DNA from: Streptomyces sp. NBC_01689
Lineage (GTDB): Bacteria > Actinomycetota > Actinomycetes > Streptomycetales > Streptomycetaceae
Assembly (NCBI RefSeq): GCF_036250675.1
Contig: NZ_CP109592.1
Location: forward strand, 2,356,001 to 2,420,000
Length of the DNA: 64,000 nt
Direction: 5' to 3'
Shown here: positions 5,015-39,529 of the stretch, piece after piece
How positions within the stretch are numbered: position 1 is the first letter of the stretch
Layout of the letters: the number at the start of each line of letters is the position of its first letter
Notes under the pieces: generated by a model
Databases searched by the model: none
What the model was told of the DNA's origin: nothing
What the model saw: the letters and a program-made list of their open reading frames with translations, nothing else
Position numbers and translations under genes: made by a program

Positions 5015-5023
5015 GGCGCATTT

Positions 5024-5175
5024 CCTCTCCGGCGCCTGCGAGGTGAGCTGTCGGGTGCGGACTGGAGATGTCCGGCCGCGCGACGGCACGGCTGTACCCC
5101 TAGCCGTTCCGGAGACCGGAACAGGCGCGATACCTGTGGGTCCCCCGCTCCTGCCGTGTACGGGTGAGTGCGGAT
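5024..5175 (-). promoter_or_regulatory. ydaO-type c-di-AMP riboswitch in peptidase leader
   Basis: Read on the minus strand, the leader contains GAGCGGGGGACCCA (complement of 5137-5150), a GGGGU-containing helix, and the 3' block ACCCGACAGCTCACCTCG (complement of about 5038-5055) running into GGCGCCGGAGAGG. These are the conserved blocks I recall for actinobacterial ydaO/c-di-AMP riboswitches, which sit before rpf and LysM/M23 hydrolase genes. The element ends about 9 nt before the ATG and includes the ribosome site. In this class c-di-AMP generally turns expression off. No covariance search was run. Confidence 0.75.
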
Positions 5176-5601
5176 TCCGGGCGGCGGCAGGATTGGGCGT
5201 CCGTCCGGATTGAGGGCGAACGTAGGCGAGGGACCGGCGCGGCGACAACCGTCCGCGAACCCGGTACGCACCTCTTTCTTGATCGATGCCCTGATTGCCC
5301 GTCACCCTCCGTGCACGAAGAGCCCTCCACCCGGGTCCCCGCCCGGCCGCACGGGCGCACCGGAAATCGGATGCCGCAACGCATCGTCACATGTATGACG
5401 CTGCTCACGCACGTCACCCCATGAGTGCATATTCCAGGGCCAGTTCCATCACATCCGACAGATTGCACATATGGGACCTATGGGTGATATCAACCCTGTG
5501 GACAACTCATTGCCCCAGGAACCCATGTCGTATCGTCGAGAGGCGATTCCCGTCGGCGGGCGACGACGAGCGGTGCCGACGGACCTATGGGAGGAGCCCC
5601 C
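5176..5601. other. Divergent promoter region, peptidase / phosphatase
   Basis: A 426-bp spacer with a local AT-rich stretch (about 5390-5540), unlike its surroundings, which probably holds both promoters. TTGCAC with an AT-rich element about 17 bp downstream near 5463-5490 could serve the phosphatase. No small gene was recognised. Confidence 0.4.
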
Positions 5602-15745: not shown

Positions 15746-16813
15746 TCATCTCTTCCGTACGACGACGAAGTCGGCGAGCGCCACGAGTTCGGCCCGCACC
15801 CGGTCGGGCATCTCGACGGCGTTCAGGGCCTCGATGGCGATGGTGTGCTGACGGCGTGCCTCCTGGGCGGTCCACTCGCGGCCGCCCGCCTCCTCGATGA
15901 GCGCGGCGCGGGCCGCGAACTCCTCCTCGGAGAAGTTCTCGAAGTCGCTGGCCTTGGCGTCCTCGGCCAGCAGCCGGCCGAGCCGTTCCGAGGCGGGCCC
16001 GCCCGCGGCGAGCGCCGCCACGACCGGCAGGGACTTCTTGCGCTGGCGCAGATCACTCCAGGTCTGCTTGCCGGTGGCCTCCGGGTCGCCCCAGATGCCG
16101 AGGAGGTCGTCGACGGCCTGGAAGGCCAGTCCGAGGTGGTAGCCGTACCGCTCCAGGGTGTCGGCGGTGCGGTCGTCCGCGCCGCCGAGGACCGCGCCGA
16201 TCGAGCAGGCGCAGGCGAGCAGGGCGCCCGTCTTGTTGCCCTCCATCTCCAGGCACTCCTCGACGCTGACCCGGTCGCGGTGCTCGTAGGAGATGTCCTG
16301 TGCCTGGCCGTCGATGAGGGCGCGGGTGGCGGTGGTCAGGCGGCGGGTGGCGCGGCCGGCCTCGGCGGTGCCGAGTTCGAGGAGGATCTCGTTGGCCAGC
16401 GCGAACAGGGCGTCGCCGACCAGGATCGCCTGGGCGGGGCCGTGCACCTTCCAGACGGTGTCGCGGTGACGGCGCTGCTCGTCGCCGTCCATCAGGTCGT
16501 CGTGCAGCAGCGAGAAGTTGTGCACCAGCTCCACCGCGACCGCGCCGGGCACGCCGACCTCCGGAGCGGCCCCGGCGGCCTGCGCGGACAGCACGGCCAG
16601 CGCCGGGCGCACCGCCTTGCCGCCGTCGCCGTCGGCGGGGTTGCCCGCCGCGTCGATCCAGCCGAAGTGGTAGGCGGCGACCGTGTCCATGGGCGACGCC
16701 AGACGGTCGACGGCCGCTTTCAGCACCGGTGTGGCCAGGGTCCGGCCGCGCTCCAGGAGCGCGGTCACGTCCACCGCGTCGGCAGCCGATTCGGCCGGGG
16801 GCACAGTGGGCAC
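15746..16813 (-). CDS. Polyprenyl (farnesyl) diphosphate synthase
   Basis: A 355-residue all-helical trans-prenyltransferase making the FPP precursor for squalene. The first aspartate-rich motif is DDLMD (105-109). The second is DDLLGIWGD (from 235), where the fifth position is Gly instead of Asp, as in several actinobacterial enzymes. The GTG at 16813 is preferred because GAGGAG lies six bases upstream; another in-frame GTG at 16876 overlaps the hpnE stop as GTGA and would add 21 residues. Product chain length is inferred from operon context (hpnC/D/E need C15), not from residues upstream of the first motif. Confidence 0.88.
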   Translation of the reverse strand: MPTVPPAESAADAVDVTALLERGRTLATPVLKAAVDRLASPMDTVAAYHFGWIDAAGNPADGDGGKAVRPALAVLSAQAAGAAPEVGVPGAVAVELVHNFSLLHDDLMDGDEQRRHRDTVWKVHGPAQAILVGDALFALANEILLELGTAEAGRATRRLTTATRALIDGQAQDISYEHRDRVSVEECLEMEGNKTGALLACACSIGAVLGGADDRTADTLERYGYHLGLAFQAVDDLLGIWGDPEATGKQTWSDLRQRKKSLPVVAALAAGGPASERLGRLLAEDAKASDFENFSEEEFAARAALIEEAGGREWTAQEARRQHTIAIEALNAVEMPDRVRAELVALADFVVVRKR

Positions 16814-16872
16814 AGTCTCTCCTCTTGTTGCGGTACCGGGGGTGCGGGGGTCCACCGCGCGCTGCTCGACCC

Positions 16873-18414
16873 TCACCTGAGTCCACCTCGCGGTGAAGCG
16901 CCGGTTCCCGCCGGTGTCCGGCCGGACGCCGGGGGTGCGTCCCCCGGCAGGGTGCGGGCCGTCTCCTCGAACCGGAGGAGGTGATCGCGCGGCCGGCCCA
17001 GGGCGCCCAGTGCGGCTGCCGCCGCAACGGCACCGCTGCGGACCGCGCTCTCCATGGTCGCGGGCCACCCGGTGGCGGTCCACGCGCCGGCCAGATACAG
17101 GCCGGGAGCCTTGGTACGGGCGCCGGGCCGCAGCCGCCCGACGCCGGGGGCGGGGGCGAACGTCGCGGTGCGCTCCCGGGTCACGAAGAAGTCCTTCACC
17201 TCCGCGTCGCGGGCGGCGGGCAGCAGCCGCTCCAGCTCCGGCAGATAGCGCTCGCGCAGCACGGCGACGGGCTCCTCGATCTCCAGCTGCGCGGCCGACT
17301 GGGACAGGGCCAGGTACTGCCCCTCCCGCAGCCCCGACGCCTCGGTGCGGTCGAAGACCCACTGCACCGGCGAGCCGAGCGCGGCGAAGAACGGACGGGT
17401 GAGCACCTTGCGGTCGTAGACCACGTGGACGTTGAGGATCGGCGCGTCGCCGATCTCCAGGAGCCGCTCGGGGGCGTCCAGGGCGCCCGCCGGCAGCAGA
17501 TCGTGCGCCTCGCGCTGGGGCACGGCGAGCACCACGGTGTCCGCGTCGAGTGTCTCGCCGGGAACCTGAACGCTCCAACGCCCGTTCTCGTGTCGGGAGA
17601 TGGAGGTGACTCGTGTACGGACCTCGGTACGGACGCCCGCGGAGCCGAGCGCCTTGCGGGCCAGCGTGTCGTGCAGTTCGCCCAGCGGGACGCGTGCCCA
17701 GCCGATGTCGGCCGCGCCCGGGTCGGACAGCAGACCGGTCTTGAACACCATCGCGGCGAGCCCGAGCGAGGAGTCTCCGGCCACCGCGTTGAGGGTGGCG
17801 ACCCCCACGAGGTCCCACAGTGCCTCGACGGCACGCTCCGACTGACCGTGCGCGGCGAGCCAGCTGCCGAAGTCCTGGTCGTCGAGCGCCGGGTCGTCCA
17901 GGTCGAGCGCCTTGAGCGCCAGAGCGGCACGGCCGACCTTGGCGCGCTCGGTGAGCGAGAGATGCTGATAGGTCGCCAGGCTGCGCGCGAGATGCAGGGG
18001 CACCGGCAGCGCGGTGCGGCCGATTCTCCCGAGCCGCCGTCCCGGGGTGCCGTCCGCGTCGAGAACGGGCACGTCGAGACGATCCTGCAGCGGTGCCAGC
18101 GAGGTCGCGTCGATGCGGTCGAGGAACCACCGGTAGGCGGTGCAGCAGCGCAGGAACACGTGCTGGCCGTTGTCGACGGTGAGCTCGCCGCGCCGGAAGG
18201 AGAAGGCCAGCCCGCCGAGCCGCGGTCTGCCCTCCAGCAGCGTCACGCGCACCCCGGCGTCGGCGAGCGAGAGCGCGGCGGTGATCCCGGCGAGCCCGCC
18301 ACCGACCACCACGGCGGACGTGCCCGTCCCGGCCGTGCCCGCGGACGTGCCGGCACGGTCCGGGCCGACCGGACCGTCCGCGCCCGGCTCCCCCGGCTGC
18401 GTGGCCTCGCTCAT
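16873..18414 (-). CDS. hpnE: Hydroxysqualene dehydroxylase HpnE
   Basis: A 513-residue FAD-dependent amine-oxidase/phytoene-desaturase-like enzyme that reduces hydroxysqualene to squalene in the HpnC/D/E route. The dinucleotide-binding motif VVVGGGLAGI is near residues 36-45, followed by LLEGRPRLGGLAFSF. The C-terminal FAD motif is YLAGAWTATGWPATMESAV. The ATG follows GGGGGAGGGCGC and overlaps the stop of the 46-aa gene by ATGA. The N-terminal 30 residues are Gly/Thr-rich and probably disordered. Confidence 0.93.
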   Translation of the reverse strand: MSEATQPGEPGADGPVGPDRAGTSAGTAGTGTSAVVVGGGLAGITAALSLADAGVRVTLLEGRPRLGGLAFSFRRGELTVDNGQHVFLRCCTAYRWFLDRIDATSLAPLQDRLDVPVLDADGTPGRRLGRIGRTALPVPLHLARSLATYQHLSLTERAKVGRAALALKALDLDDPALDDQDFGSWLAAHGQSERAVEALWDLVGVATLNAVAGDSSLGLAAMVFKTGLLSDPGAADIGWARVPLGELHDTLARKALGSAGVRTEVRTRVTSISRHENGRWSVQVPGETLDADTVVLAVPQREAHDLLPAGALDAPERLLEIGDAPILNVHVVYDRKVLTRPFFAALGSPVQWVFDRTEASGLREGQYLALSQSAAQLEIEEPVAVLRERYLPELERLLPAARDAEVKDFFVTRERTATFAPAPGVGRLRPGARTKAPGLYLAGAWTATGWPATMESAVRSGAVAAAAALGALGRPRDHLLRFEETARTLPGDAPPASGRTPAGTGASPRGGLR

Positions 18415-18551
18415 CGTGCGCCCTCCCCCTGCGGCCCGCCGCGGTACTCGAACGGTGTACGACCGGCCGTCGCAGTCAGGGACGCCGCGGACCACCGGAG
18501 GGTTGCCTGCCGCTTTCCTCCGGCGGAATCACCTTGGACCGGATTGTCCAT
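18411..18551 (-). CDS. 46-aa small protein between hpnD and hpnE (DUF6380-like)
   Basis: A 46-residue reading frame fills the hpnD-hpnE gap exactly. Its ATG overlaps the hpnD stop as TGATG, and its TGA overlaps the hpnE ATG as ATGA. The peptide is basic and polar with no membrane helix, and contains GGKRQATLRWSAASLTATAGRT with a C-terminal GEGAR. It resembles the short Streptomyces family I recall as DUF6380. Double coupling argues it is translated. Its role could be a chaperone or assembly peptide for the HpnD/HpnE complex, or only a coupler for HpnE translation; neither is demonstrated. Confidence 0.65.
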   Translation of the reverse strand: MDNPVQGDSAGGKRQATLRWSAASLTATAGRTPFEYRGGPQGEGAR

Positions 18552-19501
18552 CAGGTGCGCCTCCTGACGGTGCGGCGGGACACGTGCCGCGCGTCCAGAC
18601 CGGACAGGCCGCGCACGGCGACGTACGCCTTCTCCCGGCCCGGCAGCGAGACGCGTCCGCGCAGCACCGCCTCCGGGTCCCGCTCGATACGGTCCAGCAG
18701 CCGCCGGTAGATGCCGGCCATCGCCGCGACGCAGGCGCCGCTGCGCCGGTCCAGCATGGGCAGCAGCCGGTAACCCTCCGCGAAGAGGGTCCGGGCCCGT
18801 CTCACCTCGAAGTGCACCAGGCCCGCGAAGTCGGAGCCCTCCGGCGGCGTCGGCCCGTCGAAACCGGCCGAGCAGCCGAACTTCGCGAGGTCGTCGGCGG
18901 GCAGGTAGGTGCGCCCGTCGCCGGCGTCCTCGCGGACGTCCCGCAGGATGTTGGTGAGCTGGAGCGCGAGCCCGAGCGTGTCGGCGTACTCCGGCGCGCG
19001 TTCGGCGCCTCGCGCCCCCGGTTCCGTGCCGAACACACCGAGCGAGAGCCGCCCGATCGCCCCGGCCACGCAGCGGCAGTACACCTTGAGGTCGTCCCAG
19101 GTCTCGTACGTCTCACCGCGTACGTCCATGAGGACGCCGTCGATGAGCTCGTCGAGGCCGCCGAGCGGCACCGGGAAGGACGCCGCGGTGTGACTGAGGG
19201 CGACCGCGACCGGGTCGGTGTCGTCCTCGTCGACCCGGCCCTCGCGGACCCGGGTGAGCAGCGCCCTGGTGTCCTGCAGACGGGCCGCCTTCACGTCCGG
19301 TGCGAGCGTGCCGTCGCCGATGTCGTCGACACGCCGTGAGAACGCGTAGAGCGCCGACATCGCACGACGCTTGGGCGTCGGGAGAAGTCGGATGCCGTAC
19401 GCGAAATTGCGCGCCTGCTGACCGGTCACTGCTTCGCAGTAGCTGTAAGCGGCGAGTACCGGTGCGGACACGTGTTGTTCCGACTCCACGGTCCGGATCA
19501 C
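18551..19501 (-). CDS. hpnD: Presqualene diphosphate synthase HpnD
   Basis: A 316-residue squalene/phytoene-synthase-family enzyme joining two FPP to presqualene diphosphate. The first Asp-rich motif is in FSRRVDDIGDG (about 54-64) and the second in NILRDVREDAGDGR (about 185-198). Residues for the family's YCxxVAG signature (YCRCVAGAIG) are present. It starts with a GTG that overlaps the hpnC stop as GTGA. The sequence is intact and of normal length. With HpnC and HpnE it replaces a single squalene synthase. Confidence 0.93.
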   Translation of the reverse strand: MIRTVESEQHVSAPVLAAYSYCEAVTGQQARNFAYGIRLLPTPKRRAMSALYAFSRRVDDIGDGTLAPDVKAARLQDTRALLTRVREGRVDEDDTDPVAVALSHTAASFPVPLGGLDELIDGVLMDVRGETYETWDDLKVYCRCVAGAIGRLSLGVFGTEPGARGAERAPEYADTLGLALQLTNILRDVREDAGDGRTYLPADDLAKFGCSAGFDGPTPPEGSDFAGLVHFEVRRARTLFAEGYRLLPMLDRRSGACVAAMAGIYRRLLDRIERDPEAVLRGRVSLPGREKAYVAVRGLSGLDARHVSRRTVRRRT

Positions 19502-20400
19502 CCCTTTCCTCGCAGAGTCACTCCCACCTCGCGCAGCAACTGGAGCTTGCCGGGCTTGGGCGGGCCGGGAAGTACGTCGTATTCAGCGGCGGCGATCGCA
19601 CGGATCGCCGCCCTTCCCCCTGCCACGAACCCCGCGAGCAGCAGCTTGAGCCTGCCGTGGACGCTACCCACGAGGGGGGTGCCTTCATTCAGGAGGTGGA
19701 GCGCGCGTTCTGCTTCGTATGCAACCAGCGCGCGCGCCGATGCGCCTGCTGTGGCCGTGGCGAGATCCGCCTCCTGGACATGGAAACGCTTCATGTCCTC
19801 GGCGGGAAGGTAGATGCGGTCGCGGCCGAGGTCCTCGGCGACGTCCTGGAGGTGCTCGACGATCTGCAGCGCCGTGCACACCGCGTCGGAGCGGCGGATC
19901 CGCTCGGGCGTCGAGGTACCGGTGACCGAGAGGACCAGGCGGCCCACCGGGTTGGCGGACAGTTCGCAGTAGGCCAACAGGTCGTCGTACGTCTCGTAGC
20001 GCGTGACGACCTGGTCCTGGCGGTTGGCCCCGATCAGGCCGAGGAAGGGCTCGGGGGTGAGGCCGGCGCGGCGGACCGTGGGCCGCAGGCGCAGCAGCAG
20101 CGGGTGGCGCGGGGTCGAATCGAACACCCGGTGGAGGTCCGCCTCGAGGGCGTCGAGCAGGAGGAGCCGGTCCTCGGCCCCCTCCGGCGACACGCCGAGC
20201 AGCCGGGCGTCGGCGCCGCCGGGGGCGAGGTCGCCGTCACCGATGTCGTCGACGAGGCGGGCGAAGCCGTAGACCGCCATCAGGTCGTCGCGCCACGCCC
20301 GGGGCAGGAAGAAGGGCGCGACGGGGAAGTTCTCGTCCGCGGCCTTGTCGAGGGTGCCGCGCTCCGGGTCTCCGGAGCGGGCCGTCCCGGCTTCGGTCAC
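19498..20400 (-). CDS. hpnC: Hydroxysqualene synthase HpnC
   Basis: A 300-residue paralogue of HpnD that converts presqualene diphosphate to hydroxysqualene. Motif I is FARLVDDIGDG, motif II is LQDVAEDLGRDR, and YCELSANPVGR is the HpnC version of the family signature. The GTG at 20400 is the likeliest start: it overlaps the stop of a 21-codon leader ORF as GTGA, although its own ribosome site is poor; a GTG at 20430 is an alternative. It is the first enzyme gene of the operon. Confidence 0.92.
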   Translation of the reverse strand: MTEAGTARSGDPERGTLDKAADENFPVAPFFLPRAWRDDLMAVYGFARLVDDIGDGDLAPGGADARLLGVSPEGAEDRLLLLDALEADLHRVFDSTPRHPLLLRLRPTVRRAGLTPEPFLGLIGANRQDQVVTRYETYDDLLAYCELSANPVGRLVLSVTGTSTPERIRRSDAVCTALQIVEHLQDVAEDLGRDRIYLPAEDMKRFHVQEADLATATAGASARALVAYEAERALHLLNEGTPLVGSVHGRLKLLLAGFVAGGRAAIRAIAAAEYDVLPGPPKPGKLQLLREVGVTLRGKG

Positions 20401-20758: not shown

Positions 20759-21532
20759 TCATTTGCCCGTGAACTTCTCGTACTCCTTGAGGACCTCTTC
20801 GGTCGGGCCGTCCATCCGCAGCTCACCGCGTTCCAGCCACAGGACGCGGTCGCAGGTGTCGCGGATCGACTTGTTGTTGTGGCTGACCAGGAACACCGTG
20901 CCCGCGCTCTTGCGCAGCTCGCGGATGCGCTGCTCGGAGCGCTTCTGGAAGGAGCGGTCGCCGGTGGCCAGCGCCTCGTCGATCATCAGCACGTCGTGGT
21001 CCTTGGCCGCCGCGATGGAGAAGCGCAGCCGCGCCGCCATGCCGGAGGAGTAGGTCCGCATCGGCAGGGTGATGAAGTCGCCCTTCTCGTTGATGCCCGA
21101 GAAGTCGACGATCTCCTGGTAGCGCTCCTTGATCTGCTCGCGGGACATGCCCATCGCGAGGCCGCCCAGGATGACGTTCCGCTCGCCCGTGAGGTCGTTC
21201 ATCAGGGCCGCGTTCACGCCCAGCAGCGAGGGCTGGCCGTCGGTGTAGACCTTGCCCTTCTCGGCGGGCAGCAGTCCGGCGATGGCCCGCAGCAGGGTCG
21301 ACTTGCCGGAGCCGTTGGAGCCGATCAGGCCGATCGCCTCACCGCGGTAGGCGGTGAAGGAGACGCCCCTGACGGCGTGCACCTTGCGCACGCCCCGCTC
21401 CTCGCCGCGCTTGACGATGCGGCTGAGCGCGGCGGTGGCGCTGCCCTTGCCGGTCTTGGCGCCGTTCACGCGGTAGACGATGTGCAGCTCGTCCGCGATG
21501 ACGGTGGGGATGTGGGACACCTGGTCAGCCAC
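20759..21532 (-). CDS. Polysaccharide-type ABC exporter, ATPase subunit
   Basis: A 257-residue Wzt/TagH-type ATPase that powers export of a lipid-linked glycan or teichoic-acid-like polymer. Walker A is GSNGSGKS (about 71-78), the signature is the divergent YSSGMAARLRF typical of Wzt/TagH, Walker B is VLMIDEAL, and the H-loop is in FLVSHN. No C-terminal carbohydrate-binding extension is present, so substrate is not selected by a Wzt-C domain. The GTG at 21532 overlaps the permease stop by 8 bp and has GAGAGG upstream. It is the last gene of the seven-gene operon. Confidence 0.9.
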   Translation of the reverse strand: MADQVSHIPTVIADELHIVYRVNGAKTGKGSATAALSRIVKRGEERGVRKVHAVRGVSFTAYRGEAIGLIGSNGSGKSTLLRAIAGLLPAEKGKVYTDGQPSLLGVNAALMNDLTGERNVILGGLAMGMSREQIKERYQEIVDFSGINEKGDFITLPMRTYSSGMAARLRFSIAAAKDHDVLMIDEALATGDRSFQKRSEQRIRELRKSAGTVFLVSHNNKSIRDTCDRVLWLERGELRMDGPTEEVLKEYEKFTGK

Positions 21533-22454
21533 GGCCGTACCTCTCTTCCGCCTTCCAGAAGTACACGAACCCGCCCCCGGCGAGGAGCACGGCCCAGAAG
21601 GTGGCGATCGCCCACACGTGCGGGGGCAGGTGCGAGGCACCGTATCCGTCGATGAGCGCGAAGCGCATCAGGTCCATGTAGACCGCGGCCGGGTTCACCT
21701 GGAGCGCGCGGATGACCCACTCCGGGCGGCCCACGAGCATGTTGCTGATGGAGAACATGACACCCGAGGTGTACATCCAGGTGCGCAGGATGAACGGCAT
21801 CAGCTGGGCGAGGTCCGGCGTCTTCGCGCCCAGCCTGGCCACGATGAGTGCGAGGCCGGTGTTGAAGAGGAACTGCAGCACGAGCACCGGCACGATCAGC
21901 AGCCAGGACAGACCCGGGTAGCTGCCGAAGGCGATCGCCACGACGAACAGCACGAGCATCGAGAACAGCAGCTGCTGGAGCTGCTGGAGCGCGAAGGAGA
22001 TGGGCAGCGAGGCGCGCGGGAAGTGCAGGGCGCGGACCAGGCCGAGGTTCCCCGAGATCGCGCGGACGCCGGCCATGATCGAGCTCTGGGTGAAGGTGAA
22101 GACGAAGACCCCGGTCACCAGGAAGGGGATGTAGGTGTCGTGCGACATCCCTCGGCTGGCCTTGAGGATCAGACCGAAGATGAAGTAGTACACGGCGGCG
22201 TTCAGCAGCGGCGTCGCCACCTGCCACAGCTGGCCCAGCTTGGCCTGGCTGTACTGGGCGGTCAGCTTCGCCTGCGAGAAGGCGAGGATGAAGTGCCGGC
22301 GCCCCCACAGCTGACGCACGTACTCGACGAGACCGGGCCGGGCGCCGCTGACGGCGAGCCCGTACTTTCCGGCCAGCTCGGCGGCGGAGAGCCCGTCATC
22401 GGGCGACGGGCGGTCGCTCACCGCGACCGCTCCGTCCTGCGTTGTGTCACTCAC
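21525..22454 (-). CDS. Polysaccharide-type ABC exporter, permease subunit
   Basis: A 309-residue ABC-2 permease of the Wzm/TagG kind with about six membrane helices between residues 70 and 300. The N-terminal cytoplasmic WGRRHFILAFSQAKLTAQYSQAKLG segment is the amphipathic gate region of this family. The start is uncertain: the GTG at 22454 gives the usual N-terminus but has a weak ribosome site, while a GTG at 22421 has GGAG eight bases upstream. It pairs with the overlapping ATPase gene; together they would flip or export the product of the upstream enzymes. Confidence 0.9.
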   Translation of the reverse strand: MSDTTQDGAVAVSDRPSPDDGLSAAELAGKYGLAVSGARPGLVEYVRQLWGRRHFILAFSQAKLTAQYSQAKLGQLWQVATPLLNAAVYYFIFGLILKASRGMSHDTYIPFLVTGVFVFTFTQSSIMAGVRAISGNLGLVRALHFPRASLPISFALQQLQQLLFSMLVLFVVAIAFGSYPGLSWLLIVPVLVLQFLFNTGLALIVARLGAKTPDLAQLMPFILRTWMYTSGVMFSISNMLVGRPEWVIRALQVNPAAVYMDLMRFALIDGYGASHLPPHVWAIATFWAVLLAGGGFVYFWKAEERYGRG

Positions 22455-22551
22455 AAGGGGAAACTTTCGTCTTCGGATGCGCACGGCCGGGTGGGGCAGG
22501 GCCATGGCACGGGACCGGGGTCGGGACCACGTGCTCACAGGAACGAGCTTG

Positions 22552-23436
22552 TCAGATGACGGGAGGACGGCCCAGTCTGGTCAGCCGCCACACCGTACGC
22601 CACTTCATGGGCCGCCTGCGTCCGCACGGGCTGGTCCAGCCCTCCTTGAACCCGCCGAACCAGGCCTTCAGCGCGGGTGCGGAGGGGCGGCGGGCCAGGG
22701 TCAGGAGCATCCACACCCCCAGATACACGGGGACGAGCGGTGCGGGAAGGTTCCGGCGGGCGAGCCAGACGCGGTTGCGGGCCACCATCCGGTGGTAGAC
22801 CGCGTGCCGCGAGGGCGCCGTGGTCGGGTGGTTCAGCACCATGTCGGACCGGTAGTCGATCATCCAGCCCGCGTCGAGCGCCCGCCAGGCCAGGTCGGTC
22901 TCCTCGTGGGCGTAGAAGAACTCGTCGGGGAGCCCTCCGACCTGGCCGAAGACCTTTGTGCGGACCGCGTTGGCGCCGCCGAGGAAGGTCGTGACCCGGG
23001 AGGAGCGCATGGGGTCCGAGGCACGCAGCCGCGGCACGTGCCGGCGCTGGGTCTCGCCGGTCTCCGGGTCGGCGATCCGGAAGCTGATGATCCCGAGCTC
23101 CGGGTCGTCGGCGAAGGCCCGGCGGCACAGCTCGGCGGTGTCGTGGGTGGCCAGGAGTCCGTCGTCGTCGAGGAAGAGCAGGATGTCCATGTCGGCGCCG
23201 CCGGGCCCGAAGGCCTCGATACCGACGTTGCGGCCGCCGGGTATGCCGAGGTTCTCGGGCAGCTCGACGGTGCGTATGCCCTCGGGGACGTCCGGGACGG
23301 GCGAACCGTTGCCGACCACGACCACCTCGACACGGTCGCCGTCCTGCTTCGCCACGGAGTCCAGCAGGGCCCGGAGCTCGTCGGGACGGTTGCCCATGGT
23401 GATGACGACTGCGCCGACCTTCATCGCCGCGCTCAC
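22552..23436 (-). CDS. Family-2 glycosyltransferase
   Basis: A 294-residue GT-A glycosyltransferase without membrane helices. VITMGNRP and a VVVGNGS segment form the nucleotide-sugar site, FLDDDG (about 90-95) is the DxD metal motif, and FFYAHEETDLAWR carries the ED general-base motif of GT2 enzymes. The GTG at 23436 overlaps the stop of the CDP-alcohol transferase gene as GTGA; an ATG four codons later is an alternative. Donor and acceptor are unknown. It probably decorates or extends the molecule built by the neighbouring CDP-alcohol enzymes before export. Confidence 0.88.
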   Translation of the reverse strand: MSAAMKVGAVVITMGNRPDELRALLDSVAKQDGDRVEVVVVGNGSPVPDVPEGIRTVELPENLGIPGGRNVGIEAFGPGGADMDILLFLDDDGLLATHDTAELCRRAFADDPELGIISFRIADPETGETQRRHVPRLRASDPMRSSRVTTFLGGANAVRTKVFGQVGGLPDEFFYAHEETDLAWRALDAGWMIDYRSDMVLNHPTTAPSRHAVYHRMVARNRVWLARRNLPAPLVPVYLGVWMLLTLARRPSAPALKAWFGGFKEGWTSPCGRRRPMKWRTVWRLTRLGRPPVI

Positions 23437-24212
23437 TTGAGCCTGCTGGACGCGAGGATGGACACGAGGTGCAGCAGGGTCTGCACGAGCGCGATGCCGG
23501 CGAGCACCGCGGTGCCGAGGCGGGTGAAGAACAGGTCGCCCCTGACCTGGTCGGCGATGGCGAGGACCAGGATCAGCAGCGACGCCTCGATGCCGAGGAT
23601 CAGCCGGTGGAACCTGAGCGCGCCGGCGGCCCGGCGCGCGAGGGCCATGCCGGACGAGCGGGGCTCGGACGCCGCCTCCTTGACCGGCGGCAGCCCGCCC
23701 TGGTGGCGGGCGACGCCGACGAGGTCGGTCTCGGCCTTGACCAGGATCGCGCCGAGGGCCGCCAGGGTGCCGAGGAAGGCCCACAGCCAGTCGACGCGCC
23801 CGGTGCCCCACAGGTCGGCGGCGCGCAGCCCGAGGCCGACGAGGACGGCCGCGTCGGTCAGGTAGGCGCCGACGCGGTCCAGGTAGACCCCGCCGAGCGA
23901 GTACTGCTTCTTCCAGCGCGCGATCTCGCCGTCGACGCAGTCAAGCAGCAGGTACAGCTGGACCGCGACCACGCCGAGCACGGCGCCCGCGATCCCCGGC
24001 ACCAGCAGGGCCGGGGCCGCGAGCACGCCGCAGACGGTCATCAGGTAGGTGAGCTGGTTGGGCGTGACCCTGGTGTTCACCAGGTAGCGGTCGCAGCGCA
24101 GCGAGATCTCTCGCATGTACAGGCGTCCCGCCCAATGCTCACCGCTGCGCCGGTCCTTCACCCCTGCGGGATGAACGACGGGGCGGAGTTCAGCTACTGA
24201 TGGCCTTGGCAT
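23433..24212 (-). CDS. CDP-alcohol phosphatidyltransferase-like, motif incomplete
   Basis: A 259-residue integral membrane protein with about six helices. The CDP-alcohol phosphotransferase motif Dx2DGx2ARx8Gx3Dx3D reads DCVDGEIAR...GGVYLDRVGA. Asp91, Asp94 and Asp112 (metal and CDP ligands) are present, but the fourth Asp, proposed as the general base, is Ala116. Either another acid (Asp120 is four residues on) takes over or the protein binds without normal catalysis. Its ATG overlaps the dehydrogenase stop by 23 bp. A complete paralogue is encoded three genes upstream, so the two may be partners. Confidence 0.85.
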   Translation of the reverse strand: MPRPSVAELRPVVHPAGVKDRRSGEHWAGRLYMREISLRCDRYLVNTRVTPNQLTYLMTVCGVLAAPALLVPGIAGAVLGVVAVQLYLLLDCVDGEIARWKKQYSLGGVYLDRVGAYLTDAAVLVGLGLRAADLWGTGRVDWLWAFLGTLAALGAILVKAETDLVGVARHQGGLPPVKEAASEPRSSGMALARRAAGALRFHRLILGIEASLLILVLAIADQVRGDLFFTRLGTAVLAGIALVQTLLHLVSILASSRLK

Positions 24213-25251
24213 AGTCGGAGTAGATGTCCTTGATCTGGTGGGTTTTCAGGTCGAGGTGTTCGAGGATCGTGTAGCGGCCCGGCCGGGTCTGGGGGGCGAA
24301 CTCCACGACCTGGACGAACTCGTCCACCGTGAAGCCGATCTCCTCGGGCAGCACCGGCAGCCCGTGGCGGTGCAGTACCTCGGCCATGTACACCGACTCC
24401 TCGTGCGCCCCCCGCAGGTACATCGCGAAGGCCGCCCCCAGGCCGCACTGCTCGCCGTGGCTCGCGGCGCGCTTGGGGAAGAGGAGGTCGAAGGCGTGGT
24501 TGATCTCGTGGCAGGCGCCCGAGGAGGGCCTTGAGTCGCCCGACACGGACATGGCGATGCCGCTGAGGACCAGTGCCTCGGCGAGCACCTGGAGGAAGTC
24601 GTTGTCCCCGACGCCGCCGGGGTGACGCAGCACGGCCTCGCCGGCCTGCCGTGCCATCGCGGCGGCCAGGCCGTCGATCTTCTCCCCCTTGACGCGGTTG
24701 GCCAGTTCCCAGTCCGCGATCGCGGAGATGTTGGAGACGGCGTCGCCGATGCCGGCCCGGACGAAGCGCACGGGGGCCTCGCGGATCACGTCGAGGTCGA
24801 TGACGACCGCGATCGGGTTCGGCACGCCGTAGGACCCGCGGCCCGCGTCGTTGTCGAGCGTGGCGACCGGGGAGCACAGGCCGTCGTGAGCGAGGTTCGT
24901 CGGCACGGCGACCAGGGGCAGGCCGACCCGCGCGGCGGCGAACTTCGCACAGTCGATGATCTTGCCGCCGCCCAGTCCCACGACGGCGTCGTAGTGGCCG
25001 GCCCTTATGGCGCCGGCGAGCCGGATCGCGTCGTCGAGGGTGCCGCCGCCGACCTCGTACCAGGTGGCGCCGGGCAGGGCGGGGGCGAGCCGCTCGCGCA
25101 GCCCGGCTCCCGAGCCGCCGCTGACCGCCACGGCCAGCTTGCCCGAGTGGGAGATCCGCTCGTCGGAGAGCACGCTCGCCAGGTCGTCCAGGGCACCCGG
25201 ACGGATGTCGACGACGACCGGCGAGGGAATGAGCCTCGTCAGTACTGGCAC
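24190..25251 (-). CDS. Glycerol-1-phosphate dehydrogenase-like Fe-ADH family enzyme
   Basis: A 353-residue enzyme of the iron-containing alcohol dehydrogenase/dehydroquinate-synthase superfamily, closest in motif to EgsA/AraM sn-glycerol-1-phosphate dehydrogenases. GLGGGKIIDCAK binds NAD(P). PTNLAHDG, HEINHAFD and SHGEQC supply the Asp and two His metal ligands. The likely reaction is reduction of a keto-polyol phosphate (dihydroxyacetone phosphate in known members) to a chiral polyol phosphate, which the adjacent nucleotidyltransferase could activate. It starts at a GTG overlapping the nucleotidyltransferase stop by 13 bp. The substrate is inferred. Confidence 0.83.
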   Translation of the reverse strand: MPVLTRLIPSPVVVDIRPGALDDLASVLSDERISHSGKLAVAVSGGSGAGLRERLAPALPGATWYEVGGGTLDDAIRLAGAIRAGHYDAVVGLGGGKIIDCAKFAAARVGLPLVAVPTNLAHDGLCSPVATLDNDAGRGSYGVPNPIAVVIDLDVIREAPVRFVRAGIGDAVSNISAIADWELANRVKGEKIDGLAAAMARQAGEAVLRHPGGVGDNDFLQVLAEALVLSGIAMSVSGDSRPSSGACHEINHAFDLLFPKRAASHGEQCGLGAAFAMYLRGAHEESVYMAEVLHRHGLPVLPEEIGFTVDEFVQVVEFAPQTRPGRYTILEHLDLKTHQIKDIYSDYAKAISS

Positions 25252-25991
25252 GCGATCTCACGTCCCTTGGCGAGGTCCTCGTGGTTGTCGATCTCGACCC
25301 ACTTGACGTCGCCGATCGGTGCCACGTCGATCCGGAAGCCCCGGTTCACGAGCTCCTGGTAGCCGTGCTCGTAGAACTGCTGCGGGTCCGTCTCCCACAC
25401 CGTCTTCAGGGCGTCGGCGAGATCGGCGGCGGCCGCGCCCTCGATGAGGGTGACGCCGATGTACTCGCCGGTGGCCTCCGCGGGGTCCATGAGCTTGGTG
25501 ATCCTGCGGACACCCTTGGCGGGGTCCACGACCACCTTCATCTCCTCGTCGGCGAGCTTCTTGACCGTGTCCAGGGCCAGGATGATCCGCTTGCCCTCGC
25601 CACGGGCGGCGAGCAGGGTCCGCTCGACGGAGACCGGGTGCACGGTGTCGCCGTTGGCGAGGATCACACCGTCCGTGAGGGCGTCACGGCCGCACCACAG
25701 GGAGTAGGCGTTGTTCCACTCCTCGGCCTTGTCGTTGTCGATGAGGGTGATCCGCAGGCCGTACTTCTCCTCCAGGGCCGCCTTGCGGTCGTAGACGGCC
25801 TCCTTGCGGTAGCCGACGATGATGCCGACCTCGGTGAGACCGATCTCCGCGAAGTTGCCGAGGGTCAGGTCCAGGACCGTGATGCTGTCCTCTATGCCCG
25901 CGGGACCAACCGGCACGAGAGCCTTGGGGAGGCTGTCGGTGTAGGGGCGCAGACGCCGTCCGGCGCCGGCCGCCAGCACGAGGCCGATCAT
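25239..25991 (-). CDS. CTP/NTP:alcohol-phosphate nucleotidyltransferase
   Basis: A 250-residue GT-A-type nucleotidyltransferase. The nucleotide-binding motif is LAAGAGRRLRPYT (6-18), followed by the PKALVPV pyrophosphorylase signature; ANGDTV is the metal-binding Asp region. It resembles phosphocholine/inositol-phosphate cytidylyltransferases (LicC, the IPCT half of IPCT/DIPPS) more than glucose-1-phosphate enzymes in length. With a polyol-phosphate dehydrogenase after it and CDP-alcohol transferases on both sides, CDP-polyol formation is the natural reading. The ATG overlaps the previous stop by ATGA. Confidence 0.82.
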   Translation of the reverse strand: MIGLVLAAGAGRRLRPYTDSLPKALVPVGPAGIEDSITVLDLTLGNFAEIGLTEVGIIVGYRKEAVYDRKAALEEKYGLRITLIDNDKAEEWNNAYSLWCGRDALTDGVILANGDTVHPVSVERTLLAARGEGKRIILALDTVKKLADEEMKVVVDPAKGVRRITKLMDPAEATGEYIGVTLIEGAAAADLADALKTVWETDPQQFYEHGYQELVNRGFRIDVAPIGDVKWVEIDNHEDLAKGREIACQY

Positions 25992-27790
25992 GCGGGTTCT
26001 CCTTCATCGTGTACGGCGGGCGCCCCGGAGGACGCCCAGAAGCGGATGCTCTCGAAGAGCACCAGCACGGCCACGGCCACGGCGAGCACCGTGAGCGCGA
26101 CCTCGAACTGTGCGGCGGTGAGCACCGCGGCCAGGACGGTGACCAGCAGCGTCCTGCCCTCGTGGCCGCCGGTCGCCCGCACCAGCCACTGCGGCGGCGC
26201 GCCCGCGTTGCCGCGGATGCGGTACACCGTGTCGTAGTGATGGTAGGCGACCGCGGCCACCAGGCCGAAAGCCGCCGGAAGCGCTCCGTTCACGTCGGCT
26301 TCGACTGCCAGTACCAGAACGGTGAGGTACTCGGCGGCCCGGAAGACCGGGGGGACGAGCCAGTCGAGGGCGCCCTTGAGGGGGCGGGCGACGGCGACGG
26401 CGGACATGAGCGTGTGGACGACGGCGAACACGACGGTCTGCCAGCCGGGGCCCCACAGCACGGCCGAGGCGACCACGAGGAAGCCGCCGACGAAGGCGCT
26501 GACGGGCGCGGCGTGCCGGACGGTGCCGCGGACGCGGCGGACCAGCAGTTCGACGAGCGGTCCGCTGTCCGCGAGGTCGGCCAGCGCCTGCGCGGCCCGG
26601 TCCGTGCGCCGGGCCTTGCGGGTGAGCGAGCGCAGCACGCGGCCGGCCGTGGTGTACGTGGCCGCGAAGGCGCAGCCGGCGAGCAGCGCGTAGAAGGTGA
26701 TGCGGGGTGTGGTCAGAGCCGTGAGAACGGCGATCATCGCCCATCGTTCGCCGATGGGCAGGACTATCATCCGGCGCACCCAGACCGTCCAGCCGACGCT
26801 GTCGAGCTTGCCGGAGAGGGCCGCGGTGGGGCTGGTGTTGGCCGTGGCGTCGTGGTTCGCCTCGTTGAAGGAGAAGTCGACGACGTGCCGGCAGGTCTGC
26901 AGGATCATCGCGCCCAGGGCGAGCGCCCACACGTCGTCGCCGCCGCGGGCCGCGCCGAGGGCGAGTCCGGCGTAGTAGGCGTACTCCTTGGCGCGGTCGA
27001 AGGTCGCGTCCAGCCAGGCGCCGAGTGTCGAGTACTGCAGGGAGTAGCGGGCGAGCTGCCCGTCGGTGCAGTCCAGGACGAAGGAGAAGAGGAGCAGCAG
27101 GCCGGCCGCGACGAACCCGGCGCGGGTGCCGGTGGCGGCACAGCCCGCGGCGATCAGCGCGGTCAGCAGCGAGGCGGTGGTGACCTGGTTCGGGGTCAGG
27201 CCGCGGCGGGCGCACCAGCGGGCGAGGTAGCGGGAGTACGGGCTGATGCAGTACGTGGTGAAGAAGCCGTCGCGGGCCTTCACGGCGCTGCGCAGCCGGA
27301 CCGCCTCGTCGTCCACGGAGGCGACGGCCTGCCGGATCTCGTTGCGCTCCTGCGGGTCACCGGGGACCGCGGCGACCAGGGACCCCAGTTCCGGGCGGTG
27401 GACGGCGACGCCGTCCGCGTCGAGGGCCGCGGTGAGACGCTCGGCGAGGTTGTCGGTCGCGACGGCCAGGCCGCCGGCGGCGGAGCTCTCGCGGGCCAGG
27501 GCGCGGGTCAGCGCCCGGCGGGCCTCCGGCTGCACGGCGACGGCGCCGGGGACGGCGGAGGCCGGGAAGCGGGGGTCGGTGAGGCCGAGGCGCAGGGCGT
27601 GCGGGTGCCCGACGAAGCGGGCGTCGACGAGGGCGACCCGCTCCCCCGCGGGCACGGCTGCCAGCAGGGTCTCGGCGTCACCGGCCTCCGCGGCGGAGTG
27701 GACGTCGAACCCGAGCGACCGCAGATCGCCCTCGAGCGACGATCCGGGGACCGGCTGGCCGGTGAGGATGGCGGTCGACAGCGAACTCAC
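25988..27790 (-). CDS. CDP-alcohol phosphatidyltransferase with N- and C-terminal extensions
   Basis: A roughly 600-residue membrane protein heading the operon. Residues 1-165 are soluble and unrecognised. Residues about 175-400 form a CDP-alcohol phosphotransferase with the full motif DCTDGQLAR...LGAWLDATFD (Asp240, 243, 261, 265). The remainder has further helices and a region I associate with DUF5941. The IPCT/DIPPS enzymes of thermophiles join a cytidylyltransferase to such a domain; here the two are separate neighbours. The start is uncertain: the GTG at 27790 fits the expected N-terminus, but its ribosome site (AGGGA) is unusually close; an ATG at 27928 is in frame. Confidence 0.82.
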   Translation of the reverse strand: MSSLSTAILTGQPVPGSSLEGDLRSLGFDVHSAAEAGDAETLLAAVPAGERVALVDARFVGHPHALRLGLTDPRFPASAVPGAVAVQPEARRALTRALARESSAAGGLAVATDNLAERLTAALDADGVAVHRPELGSLVAAVPGDPQERNEIRQAVASVDDEAVRLRSAVKARDGFFTTYCISPYSRYLARWCARRGLTPNQVTTASLLTALIAAGCAATGTRAGFVAAGLLLLFSFVLDCTDGQLARYSLQYSTLGAWLDATFDRAKEYAYYAGLALGAARGGDDVWALALGAMILQTCRHVVDFSFNEANHDATANTSPTAALSGKLDSVGWTVWVRRMIVLPIGERWAMIAVLTALTTPRITFYALLAGCAFAATYTTAGRVLRSLTRKARRTDRAAQALADLADSGPLVELLVRRVRGTVRHAAPVSAFVGGFLVVASAVLWGPGWQTVVFAVVHTLMSAVAVARPLKGALDWLVPPVFRAAEYLTVLVLAVEADVNGALPAAFGLVAAVAYHHYDTVYRIRGNAGAPPQWLVRATGGHEGRTLLVTVLAAVLTAAQFEVALTVLAVAVAVLVLFESIRFWASSGAPAVHDEGEPA

Positions 27791-28161: not shown

Positions 28162-29139
28162 ATGACATGGCTGATCACCGGCGGGGCCGGATACATCGGG
28201 GCACACGTGGCGCGGGCGATGGCGGAGGCCGGGGAGCGCGTGGTCGCCCTGGACGACCTCTCGGCCGGGGTGGCGCGGCGGCTCCCGGAGGGCATCCCGC
28301 TGGTCCGGGGCTCGTCCCTGGACGGGGACCTGCTCAAGCGGGTCCTGGCGGAGCACGAAGTGACCGGTGTGGTGCATCTCGCGGCGCGCAAGCAGGTCGG
28401 CGAGTCCGTGGAGCAGCCCACGCGCTACTACCAGGAGAACGTGGGCGGGCTCGCGACGCTCCTGGAGGCGGTGGCCGAGGCGGGTGTGCGGCGGTTCCTC
28501 TTCTCCTCGTCCGCGGCCGTGTACGGCAATCCGGACGTGGACCTCATCACGGAGGACACCCCCTGCGCGCCGATGAGCCCGTACGGCGAGACGAAGCTCG
28601 CCGGGGAGTGGCTGGTGCGCGCGGCGGGCCGGGCGCACGGCATCGCGACGGTCTGCCTGCGCTACTTCAACGTGGCGGGCGCGGCCGCGCCCGAGCTGGC
28701 CGACACCGGGGTGTTCAACGTCATCCCGATGGTCTTCGACCGCCTCACCCGGGGCGAGGCCCCGCGGATCTTCGGCGGCGACTATCCGACGCCGGACGGC
28801 ACGTGCGTCCGCGACTACATCCATGTCGCCGACCTCGCCGAGGCCCATCTCGCGGCGGCCCGCCGGCTCGCGGGTGACGCGACGGGCGATCTGACCGTGA
28901 ACATCGGCCGGGGCGAGGGTGTCTCGGTACGTGAGCTGATCACGCTCGTCGCGGAGGTCAGCGGTGACGCCACGGAGCCGGTCGTCGAGCCGCGCCGTCC
29001 CGGTGACGCGCCGCGCGCGGTCGCCTCGGCCGCGCTGGCCGCCCGCGAGCTGGACTGGAGCGCGCGGCGCGGGGTGCGCGAGATGGTCGCGTCGGCCTGG
29101 GACGGATGGCGACTTCATCACCCCCCGACCCAGGATTAA
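28162..29139 (+). CDS. galE: UDP-glucose 4-epimerase family (GalE-like)
   Basis: A 325-residue extended short-chain dehydrogenase. GGAGYIG (7-13) binds NAD; the catalytic triad is Ser in LFSSSAAVYG plus YGETK (Tyr/Lys). DYIHVADLAEAH is the usual GalE C-terminal signature. The probable reaction is UDP-Glc/UDP-Gal (or the N-acetyl forms) interconversion. It is divergent from the CDP-alcohol/glycosyltransferase/ABC operon, so it may supply the sugar donor for that system. It starts from an apparently leaderless promoter and is followed by a strong hairpin, so it is a single-gene unit. Confidence 0.88.
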   Translation: MTWLITGGAGYIGAHVARAMAEAGERVVALDDLSAGVARRLPEGIPLVRGSSLDGDLLKRVLAEHEVTGVVHLAARKQVGESVEQPTRYYQENVGGLATLLEAVAEAGVRRFLFSSSAAVYGNPDVDLITEDTPCAPMSPYGETKLAGEWLVRAAGRAHGIATVCLRYFNVAGAAAPELADTGVFNVIPMVFDRLTRGEAPRIFGGDYPTPDGTCVRDYIHVADLAEAHLAAARRLAGDATGDLTVNIGRGEGVSVRELITLVAEVSGDATEPVVEPRRPGDAPRAVASAALAARELDWSARRGVREMVASAWDGWRLHHPPTQD

Positions 29140-30219: not shown

Positions 30220-30248
30220 GCGAGCGGGCGGGACGGGGTGCGGGTCCC

Positions 30249-30290
30249 GGGCGACGGGCGACGGGCGACGGGCGACGGGCGACGGGCGAC
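30249..30290. repeat. 7-bp tandem repeat gggcgac x6
   Basis: Six exact copies of gggcgac, starting 30 bp after the CDF stop codon, non-coding. It is immediately followed by a second, unrelated tandem array. Confidence 0.95.
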
Positions 30291-30293
30291 GAT

Positions 30294-30389
30294 TGACCGG
30301 CTGACCGGCTGACCGGCTGACCGGCTGACCGGCTGACCGGCTGACCGGCTGACCGGCTGACCGGCTGACCGGCTGACCGGCTGACCGGC
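30294..30389. repeat. 8-bp tandem repeat tgaccggc x12
   Basis: Twelve exact copies of tgaccggc over 96 bp, non-coding, between the CDF gene and the methyltransferase promoter. Perfect identity suggests recent slippage expansion and probable strain-to-strain length variation. Confidence 0.95.
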
Positions 30390-30472
30390 TGGGGAGGGTG
30401 CCCGGCCCCGGCCCCAACCCCCTGGTCGGCCGGGCGGGAAATACCCGAGTGCGGGGCCGTACCGGCCGGTGC

Positions 30473-39344: not shown

Positions 39345-39382
39345 GTACGTGCCCGCGTCCCGTTCGGGGCGCGGGCACGTAC
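39345..39382 (+). terminator. Hairpin terminator of tex
   Basis: An 18-bp stem with one G-U wobble (39345-39362 with 39365-39382) and a minimal 2-nt loop, 55 bp after the tex stop. Its right arm forms part of the first units of the adjacent 22-bp tandem repeat. Confidence 0.75.
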
Positions 39383-39529
39383 CGGTTCGTTGCGCGGCAC
39401 GACCCGTCCGTGGCACGGGCACGACCCGTCCGGAGCGCGGGCGCGACCCGTCCGTAGCACGGACACGACCCGTCCGGAGCGCGGGCGCGACTCGTCCGAG
39501 ATGCGGGCACGGCCCGTTCGGGAGTGACC
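39354..39529. repeat. 22-bp imperfect tandem repeat, about 8 copies
   Basis: Consensus cacgacccgtccggagcgcggg recurs with an exact 22-bp period from 39354 to 39529; the outer copies are more degenerate. It is non-coding, lies between convergent tex and the ABC-F gene, and overlaps the tex terminator. There are no unique spacers, so it is not a CRISPR array. Confidence 0.85.

Follow-up and report, generated by a model that had tools for sequence, protein, structure and literature searches.

A seven-gene Streptomyces operon as a candidate for making and using CDP-activated sn-glycerol-1-phosphate

Layout and conservation of the operon

The window analysed here is a stretch of 64,000 nucleotides from Streptomyces sp. 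NBC_01689 (contig NZ_CP109592.1, positions 2,356,001 to 2,420,000; home genome 9.96 Mb in two contigs), and our subject within it is a run of seven minus-strand genes at positions 20759-27790, all of them open, each ending in a TGA stop and none containing an internal stop. Counted from gene 1, the intergenic spacing is -4, -13, -23, -4, +97 and -8 bp. An earlier interpretation made from the DNA letters (hereafter the sequence-only reading) had described a seven-gene run joined by overlaps of 4 to 23 bp, with a 97-bp gap before the permease, and remeasuring gave the same spacing; its names for all seven genes likewise concur with the Pfam assignments, which from gene 1 to gene 7 are CDP-OH_P_transf with DUF5941, NTP_transferase, Fe-ADH_2, CDP-OH_P_transf, Glycos_transf_2, ABC2_membrane and ABC_tran. 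The operon and the divergent gene beside it comprise the following.

25988..27790, minus strand: gene 1, a three-part CDP-alcohol transferase/DUF5941 protein of 600 amino acids (PF01066 and PF19365, predicted fold)
25239..25991, minus strand: gene 2 (NTP), a LicC-like nucleotidyltransferase of 250 amino acids (PF00483, PDB match 1jyk)
24190..25251, minus strand: gene 3 (AraM), an AraM/EgsA-type glycerol-1-phosphate dehydrogenase of 353 amino acids (PF13685, PDB matches 4rgq/4rfl)
23433..24212, minus strand: gene 4 (CDP2), a second CDP-alcohol phosphotransferase of 259 amino acids (fourth motif Asp replaced by Ala)
22552..23436, minus strand: gene 5 (GT2), a family 2 glycosyltransferase of 294 amino acids (PF00535; GTGA overlap with gene 4)
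21525..22454, minus strand: gene 6, a Wzm/TagG-like ABC-2 permease of 309 amino acids (PF01061)
20759..21532, minus strand: gene 7, a Wzt/TagH-like ABC ATPase of 257 amino acids (PF00005)
28162..29139, plus strand: divergent galE, UDP-glucose 4-epimerase (TIGR01179, above cut-off)

Taken together, these genes may produce cytidine diphosphate (CDP)-activated sn-glycerol-1-phosphate and use it as the start or anchor of an exported phosphoglycopolymer in the teichoic or lipoteichoic acid class, a reading that we hold tentatively and regard as nearly an even call. The component families are known, but their order and predicted stereochemistry appear to match no characterised pathway that we found.

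Conservation was assessed in 80 named loci that an alignment scan of genome contigs yielded with the NTP gene as the sole criterion, the best 80 of at least 573 confirmed relatives; their records bear names of Nitriliruptorales/Nitriliruptoraceae, Micromonospora, Actinoplanes and kin, Nocardiopsis, Streptosporangium-type genera, Actinomadura, a few Streptomyces and others, and a few counts include one duplicate, L046 and L089 being one contig. AraM is the gene after NTP in 78 of the 80 loci, its start codon lying 13 bp inside the NTP gene, as in the window, in 58 of these 78, and a CDP-alcohol transferase comes next in 77 (CDP2 in 54, a short form in 23). GT2 follows CDP2 in 54 loci, 51 have a gene-1-like transferase upstream, and 23 contain the two ABC genes somewhere. 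Where AraM is at least 70% identical (18 loci, termed Streptomyces-type), the order NTP-AraM-CDP2-GT2 is present in 18/18, which argues that the operon is not a product of chance, and the ABC pair accompanies it in 17, the exception (L064) being cut by a contig end. One further locus, L145 from Streptomyces humicola, carries the NTP-AraM-CDP2-GT2-ABC block without a detectable upstream match to gene 1 (DUF5941).

Pairwise distances for NTP, AraM, CDP2 and GT2 in 70 loci are correlated (r 0.79-0.93, with common descent uncorrected), and the NTP-AraM value was reached in 0/500 permutations. The DUF5941 family (PF19365) occurs in all 84 of 84 genomes of the same genus, a count that takes in the home genome, and in 4/15 others of the order; across a phylum sample it was found in 19 of 396 genomes, 12 of them from the home genus. 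Synteny of the block across actinobacteria, proposed as a check in the sequence-only reading, was borne out in that the block is kept in several families. The logic put forward there, in which a dehydrogenase, activation by cytidine triphosphate (CTP), CDP-alcohol transfer, sugar addition and ABC export follow one another, also appears sound, given the NTP-AraM-transferase adjacency in 77/80 loci and the in-line galE of L053-L055.

Predicted supply, transfer and export of glycerol phosphate

In the first step of the proposed route the AraM-type enzyme would convert dihydroxyacetone phosphate to sn-glycerol-1-phosphate (G1P), as its family and conserved metal site suggest. Its best PDB matches are G1P dehydrogenases (G1PDHs) at 135-151 bits (4rgq, 4rfl 150 bits), a further G1PDH (9h4x) scoring 89 bits, and D123, H248 and H265, which we take to be the metal ligands, are invariant in 99/99 aligned sequences by alignment column count, inside motifs alignable with 4rgq. 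Among the matches listed, the closest homologues are Streptomyces proteins of 88-94% identity; no useful fusions or wider taxa were present among the 120 listed of 3394 homologues, all close Streptomyces-type proteins. It seems improbable that the dehydrogenase instead acts on some other ketose phosphate or on a keto-cyclitol phosphate, in which case the activated polyol would not be glycerol. The score against the G1PDH equivalog model PRK00843 (242 bits, cut-off 413) leaves room for such a substrate, and the motif evidence covers the metal and general motifs, not the substrate pocket residues; however, the best solved relatives are the G1PDHs named above, the depositor-named glycerol dehydrogenase 3ce9 reaching 145 bits and the next glycerol dehydrogenase, 1kq3, 72 bits, and published trees, in passages of PMC5059525 and PMC6431249, assign sequences from Actinobacteria to the G1PDH family.

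The sequence-only reading had called G1P-type stereochemistry unusual in a bacterium, a view that needs some correction, since a clan of bacterial G1PDHs, mainly from Firmicutes and Actinobacteria, is already described in a passage of PMC6431249 (cf. PMC5059525); Bacillus is treated as a notable bacterial case in a passage of PMC13400652 (2026). The operon shares with the Bacillus AraM-PcrB ether lipid route a bacterial G1PDH of the same family. Unlike in that route, the dehydrogenase gene is here joined to a nucleotidyltransferase gene, and PcrB/GGGPS (PF01884) has zero matches in the home genome, compared with matches in 7/14 controls including B. subtilis and four archaea, so that the Bacillus use of G1P is unavailable to the home genome.

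In the second step NTP would combine G1P with CTP to give CDP-1-glycerol, as its coupling to AraM and its nearest structure suggest, the best PDB match being the CTP:phosphocholine cytidylyltransferase LicC (1jyk, 51 bits). The signature AGxGxRLxPxT..LPK is present in 100/100 NTP orthologues, and we predict NTP to be a CTP:glycerol-1-phosphate cytidylyltransferase. A passage of PMC8262930 considers CDP-1-glycerol likely to be absent from bacteria. A distant relative of NTP, L075, has homologues of 39-41% identity in Geoglobus, Archaeoglobus and Ferroglobus (P0134, P0136, P0169, P0202), a hint only; one archaeal protein of this type could be the G1P cytidylyltransferase that PMC8262930 calls unidentified.

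In the third step two membrane transferases would pass glycerol phosphate from the soluble CDP-alcohol to a hydroxyl group on either a membrane lipid or a sugar linked to a lipid. Gene 1 consists of a degenerate cytidylyltransferase-like domain (residues ~1-160), a CDP-alcohol phosphotransferase core (~175-396) and DUF5941 (398 to the end), and its predicted structure (predicted local distance difference test 86.7, predicted template modelling score 0.84) matches IspD/TarI over ~4-160 and CEPT1 over 173-593, with cholinephosphotransferase-type helices outside the CDP-OH_P core. The nucleotidyltransferase motif G-x-G-x-R...P-K was not found in residues 1-160, and in the model gene 1 folds as a dead cytidylyltransferase joined to a cholinephosphotransferase-like enzyme. 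Eukaryotic CHPT1/CEPT1 share this predicted fold, extra helices included, although gene 1 is bacterial, is 11-12% identical to them and has the N-terminal cytidylyltransferase-like domain. Names offered by NCBIfam (PIP synthase, PgsA, sugar nucleotidyltransferase) were rejected, their scores being far below cut-off.

Scored for the transferase motif D1xxD2G..AR..G..D3xxxD4, 52 of 53 high-scoring gene 1 homologues carry D1-D4 in full, a count that used the best match per locus; 19 short 'gene 1' rows were CDP2 genes, and a recount by position was made (given below). In CDP2 the fourth Asp (D4), which we take to be the likely catalytic base of the CDP-alcohol transferase family, is replaced in 73/73 sequences (by His in 59 and by Ala in 14, the latter including the window). 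Since gene 1 keeps the motif in the window and CDP2 is without D4, neither transferase is a mere duplicate of the other, and the sequence-only reading, which had treated them alike, needs amending: in the window one combines the full motif with a cholinephosphotransferase-like fold, and the other has no D4. Here gene 1 would be the likelier catalyst, with CDP2 as its partner or as the enzyme for a second unit.

In the fourth step GT2 would add a sugar, for which UDP-galactose made by GalE is one option, and in the fifth the TagGH-like ABC pair would export the product, to be extended into teichoic acid in those strains that have TagF-type polymerases. The galE-like gene that the sequence-only reading had placed opposite the operon scores 320 bits against the GalE equivalog model (TIGR01179), above its cut-off of 262, and galE lies near the block in 10/18 Streptomyces-type loci; in L053-L055, from a sister family, it stands in line directly before NTP, in L054 and L055 between gene 1 and gene 2. 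The best NCBIfam model for the gene 7 ATPase is TagH (185 bits, cut-off 320), and the gene 6 permease weakly matches, under cut-off, a galactan export permease. In two distant actinobacterial genomes (L045, L052) the GT2 and ABC genes are separated by sulfotransferase-family genes, a hint that the product of these genomes may be sulfated.

Teichoic acid genes and competing explanations

Fusions of GT2 and TagF (PF04464) adjoin the block in L052, L053, L054 and L055; L050 has one beside gene 1 and an ABC pair, the NTP and AraM of that genome being elsewhere (L073). A divergent PF04464 protein in L148 has matches in 14/108 records searched; its neighbour is a fusion of IspD with a short-chain dehydrogenase/reductase (SDR), a layout that we take to be that of CDP-ribitol synthases, and both parts of it were matched in 15/108 records, 11 records having both this fusion and a PF04464 relative. 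Pfam itself detects PF04464 in L148 and, weakly, in one L049 gene, the other divergent cases being tblastn similarities to the L148 protein; IspD-like matches occurred in 43 records, of which only the 15 with the SDR part were used, and the match in L105 passes the cut-off for IspD of the methylerythritol phosphate pathway.

Four PF04464 genes (TagF-type, GT2-TagF) lie together in one region of the home genome, none of them in the operon. This TagF locus (L086) contains at 17867-19598 a second TagGH-like ABC pair, whose ATPase is 88.5% and whose permease is 70% identical to those of the window. Adjoining it are genes for a GT2-TagF protein of 980 amino acids and for a GT4; the corresponding two genes on the flank of the L054 block show 46% and 44% identity to them. 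The simplest history suggested by these sequences would be one ancestral locus, arranged as in L053-L055, that was split in Streptomyces with duplication of the ABC pair. The 980-residue GT2-TagF was rejected as a strict partner of the block, some match to it being present in 99/99 genomes and full-length orthologues being listed for part of the genus only. TagD (TIGR01518) has zero matches in the home genome and is over cut-off in 2/14 control genomes; across the 396 genomes those with NTP orthologues of at least 100 bits (22) and those with TagD over cut-off (8) have none in common, and NTP goes together with PF04464 in 16/22 genomes vs 33/374.

In CDP-polyol activation (predicted here), glycosyltransferase and TagGH-like exporter the operon resembles the TagD-TagB-TagF-TagGH and TarIJ-TarL systems, and TagF or TarIJ-like genes are adjacent in some relatives. 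It differs in that TagD is absent from the home genome, where AraM and the LicC-like enzyme apparently replace GpsA and TagD, and in that CDP-OH_P membrane transferases lie inside the operon instead of TagB-type enzymes. The block might nevertheless do no more than provide CDP-glycerol and an exporter for chains of ordinary wall teichoic acid whose polymerases, of the TagF type, have their genes elsewhere, with the CDP-alcohol transferases as accessories. This we judge distinctly unlikely: four GT2-TagF-type proteins without TagD in the home genome, the duplicated ABC genes of the home TagF locus, the single locus formed by polymerase and block in L053-L055 and the genetics of the S. coelicolor TagF homologue SCO2997, listed among the references of PMC7831098, would all fit, but 6/84 same-genus genomes keep the block without full TagF, zero strong TagF matches were seen in the 80 named loci, and the block retains two membrane transferases for which a simple supply of CDP-glycerol would have no use. 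The block does not depend on TagF-type genes. Since the block is kept without TagF in some genomes and a three-gene core occurs in 23/80 loci, the role of the block would be more basic than feeding TagF.

A number of observations nevertheless tell against the proposed route from G1P to an exported polymer. AraM, NTP and the ABC genes all fall under curated NCBIfam cut-offs, and TIGR01518 matches, all well below cut-off, are present in 7/12 same-genus genomes of the phylum sample, where another cytidylyltransferase is possible. Once the home genus is left out, NTP and PF04464 occur together in 4/10 genomes vs 33/374 (Fisher p 0.01, phylogeny uncorrected). PF04464 has zero matches in 4/84 same-genus genomes and traces in 2 more (G485, at ~910 contigs, may be incomplete); five of these six TagF-poor genomes keep all seven genes, and the sixth (L176), with a contig start inside gene 1, keeps the other six. 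A TagF profile match of at least 100 bits was found in 0/80 named loci within the stretch examined. A check by position of the 51 gene-1-like genes that precede NTP in the named loci shows the full motif in 31 and not in 20; two of these 20 belong to Actinomadura and 18 to Nocardiopsis, Streptomonospora or a record named Nocardiopsaceae, and the CDP2 of the 18 is also without D4. In 23/80 loci the stretch examined holds only NTP, AraM and the short transferase, with no GT2 next and no exporter, an arrangement that fits a smaller product; 22 of these loci carry names that we assign to Micromonosporaceae and one is an 'Actinomycetales' metagenome-assembled genome. The passages of the literature examined did not give the stereochemistry of glycerol phosphate in Streptomyces polymers.

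In L098, L099 and 16 more Nocardiopsis-type loci gene 1 is kept though its motif is lost, which would suit a partner without catalysis of its own. Among Nocardiopsis and related organisms CDP2, with His at D4, would then have to act, and the pair may cooperate; the catalyst may accordingly differ by lineage, and a working pair would fit both motif patterns.

A related system is that of IPCT-DIPPS, a bifunctional CTP:inositol-1-phosphate cytidylyltransferase and CDP-inositol phosphotransferase, and AF2299 in Archaeoglobus, which likewise pairs a nucleotidyltransferase with a CDP-alcohol transferase and has the same cytidylyltransferase-like plus membrane layout as gene 1. The core product might be a small or lipid-bound glycerophosphodiester, for example of the glycerophosphoinositol type or a glycerophosphoglycolipid, made in the archaeal IPCT-DIPPS style and outside teichoic polymers, which we consider unlikely. 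AF2299 and IPCT-DIPPS are the closest in sequence to both transferases (CDP2 is alignable with each), gene 1 retains the IPCT-DIPPS domain layout, the three-gene loci are as just described, and Archaeoglobus, Geoglobus and Ferroglobus proteins are among the relatives of L075. Set against this are the GT2 that comes next in 54/80 loci, the ABC pair of 17/18 Streptomyces-type loci and the teichoic genes that flank the block in several families. The operon also departs from IPCT-DIPPS itself, in that an intact nucleotidyltransferase motif is carried by a gene of its own and has been lost from the fused domain, and in that a G1PDH is added and gene 1 has the extra CEPT-like helices (DUF5941); gene 1 scores 49.6 bits against the IPCT-DIPPS model NF041135, cut-off 580.

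Conservation of the block in Streptomyces is already in print, a passage of PMC13118837 (2026) giving synteny of araM, tagG, tagH, GT2, CDP-alcohol and nucleotidyltransferase genes in 929 Streptomyces genomes, filed under teichoic acid biosynthesis; a mechanism was not found in that passage. The literature searched yielded no functional study of the block and no assigned product. The statement in the sequence-only reading that no characterised pathway or product is known thus stands as far as function goes, and is qualified by the printed synteny and its filing under teichoic acid in PMC13118837.

If CDP-1-glycerol is made, G1P in these bacteria would serve an envelope polymer instead of ether lipids, and the stereochemistry of the glycerol phosphate would offer a direct chemical test. 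Passages of PMC3196553 report that Streptomyces and Thermobifida have lipoteichoic acid and no clear LtaS, and propose an alternative route overlapping teichoic acid synthesis; some actinomycetes, according to the same source, have polyglycerol-phosphate lipoteichoic acid without clear LtaS orthologues, by a route given there as unknown. A gene for this step was not found in the passages of PMC11481543 and PMC7831098. If it works as proposed, the operon would be a testable candidate for the route to the teichoic-type envelope polymers of these bacteria. It is rather unlikely, in our estimate, that a Streptomyces-type CDP-sn-1-glycerol route, with CEPT-like transferases loading glycerol phosphate of archaeal handedness on a lipid, is both the missing LtaS-independent maker of the lipoteichoic or teichoic acid anchor or backbone and the reason why Actinobacteria keep G1PDH. 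The wall teichoic acid of S. griseus is described in a passage of PMC13274773 as ribitol phosphate with terminal glycerol-phosphate, TagF and TarIJ being named there near the utr locus. No account of the use of actinobacterial G1PDHs, enzymes counted in debates on the lipid divide, was found in the literature searched. Were the proposed route correct, DUF5941, a family of unknown function, would gain a role within a cholinephosphotransferase-like enzyme.

Genomic neighbourhood and minor observations

Immediately downstream of the operon lie the hopanoid genes hpnC, hpnD and hpnE (each above its NCBIfam cut-off), a polyprenyl synthase and a squalene-hopene cyclase, and the other flank holds galE and a cation efflux gene. 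Genes hpnC/D are near the block in 15/18 Streptomyces-type loci. A functional hopanoid link was rejected and the hopanoid genes are regarded as neighbourhood, L058 and L059 keeping the block without hpnC/D and 0/88 other loci having hpnC/D at the search thresholds (L064 is cut).

For the polyprenyl synthase (15746-16828, minus strand, in the interval between hpnE and the hopene cyclase) the best model is that of a family 2 encapsulin cargo polyprenyl transferase, at 411.6 bits (cut-off 450). ARAGORN places a tRNA-Arg(cct) at 18488-18576 on the plus strand, over the 3' end of hpnD, which is missing from the Rfam list at gathering score and is probably false. A c-di-AMP riboswitch (RF00379, 55.5 bits vs 38) lies at 5018-5176 on the minus strand. 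Downstream of the cation efflux gene, at 30241-30391, are two adjoining exact tandem arrays with 100% matches, CGGGCGA in 6.3 copies and TGACCGGC in 12.2 copies, and at 39354-39521 an imperfect 44-bp tandem repeat is present in 3.8 copies.

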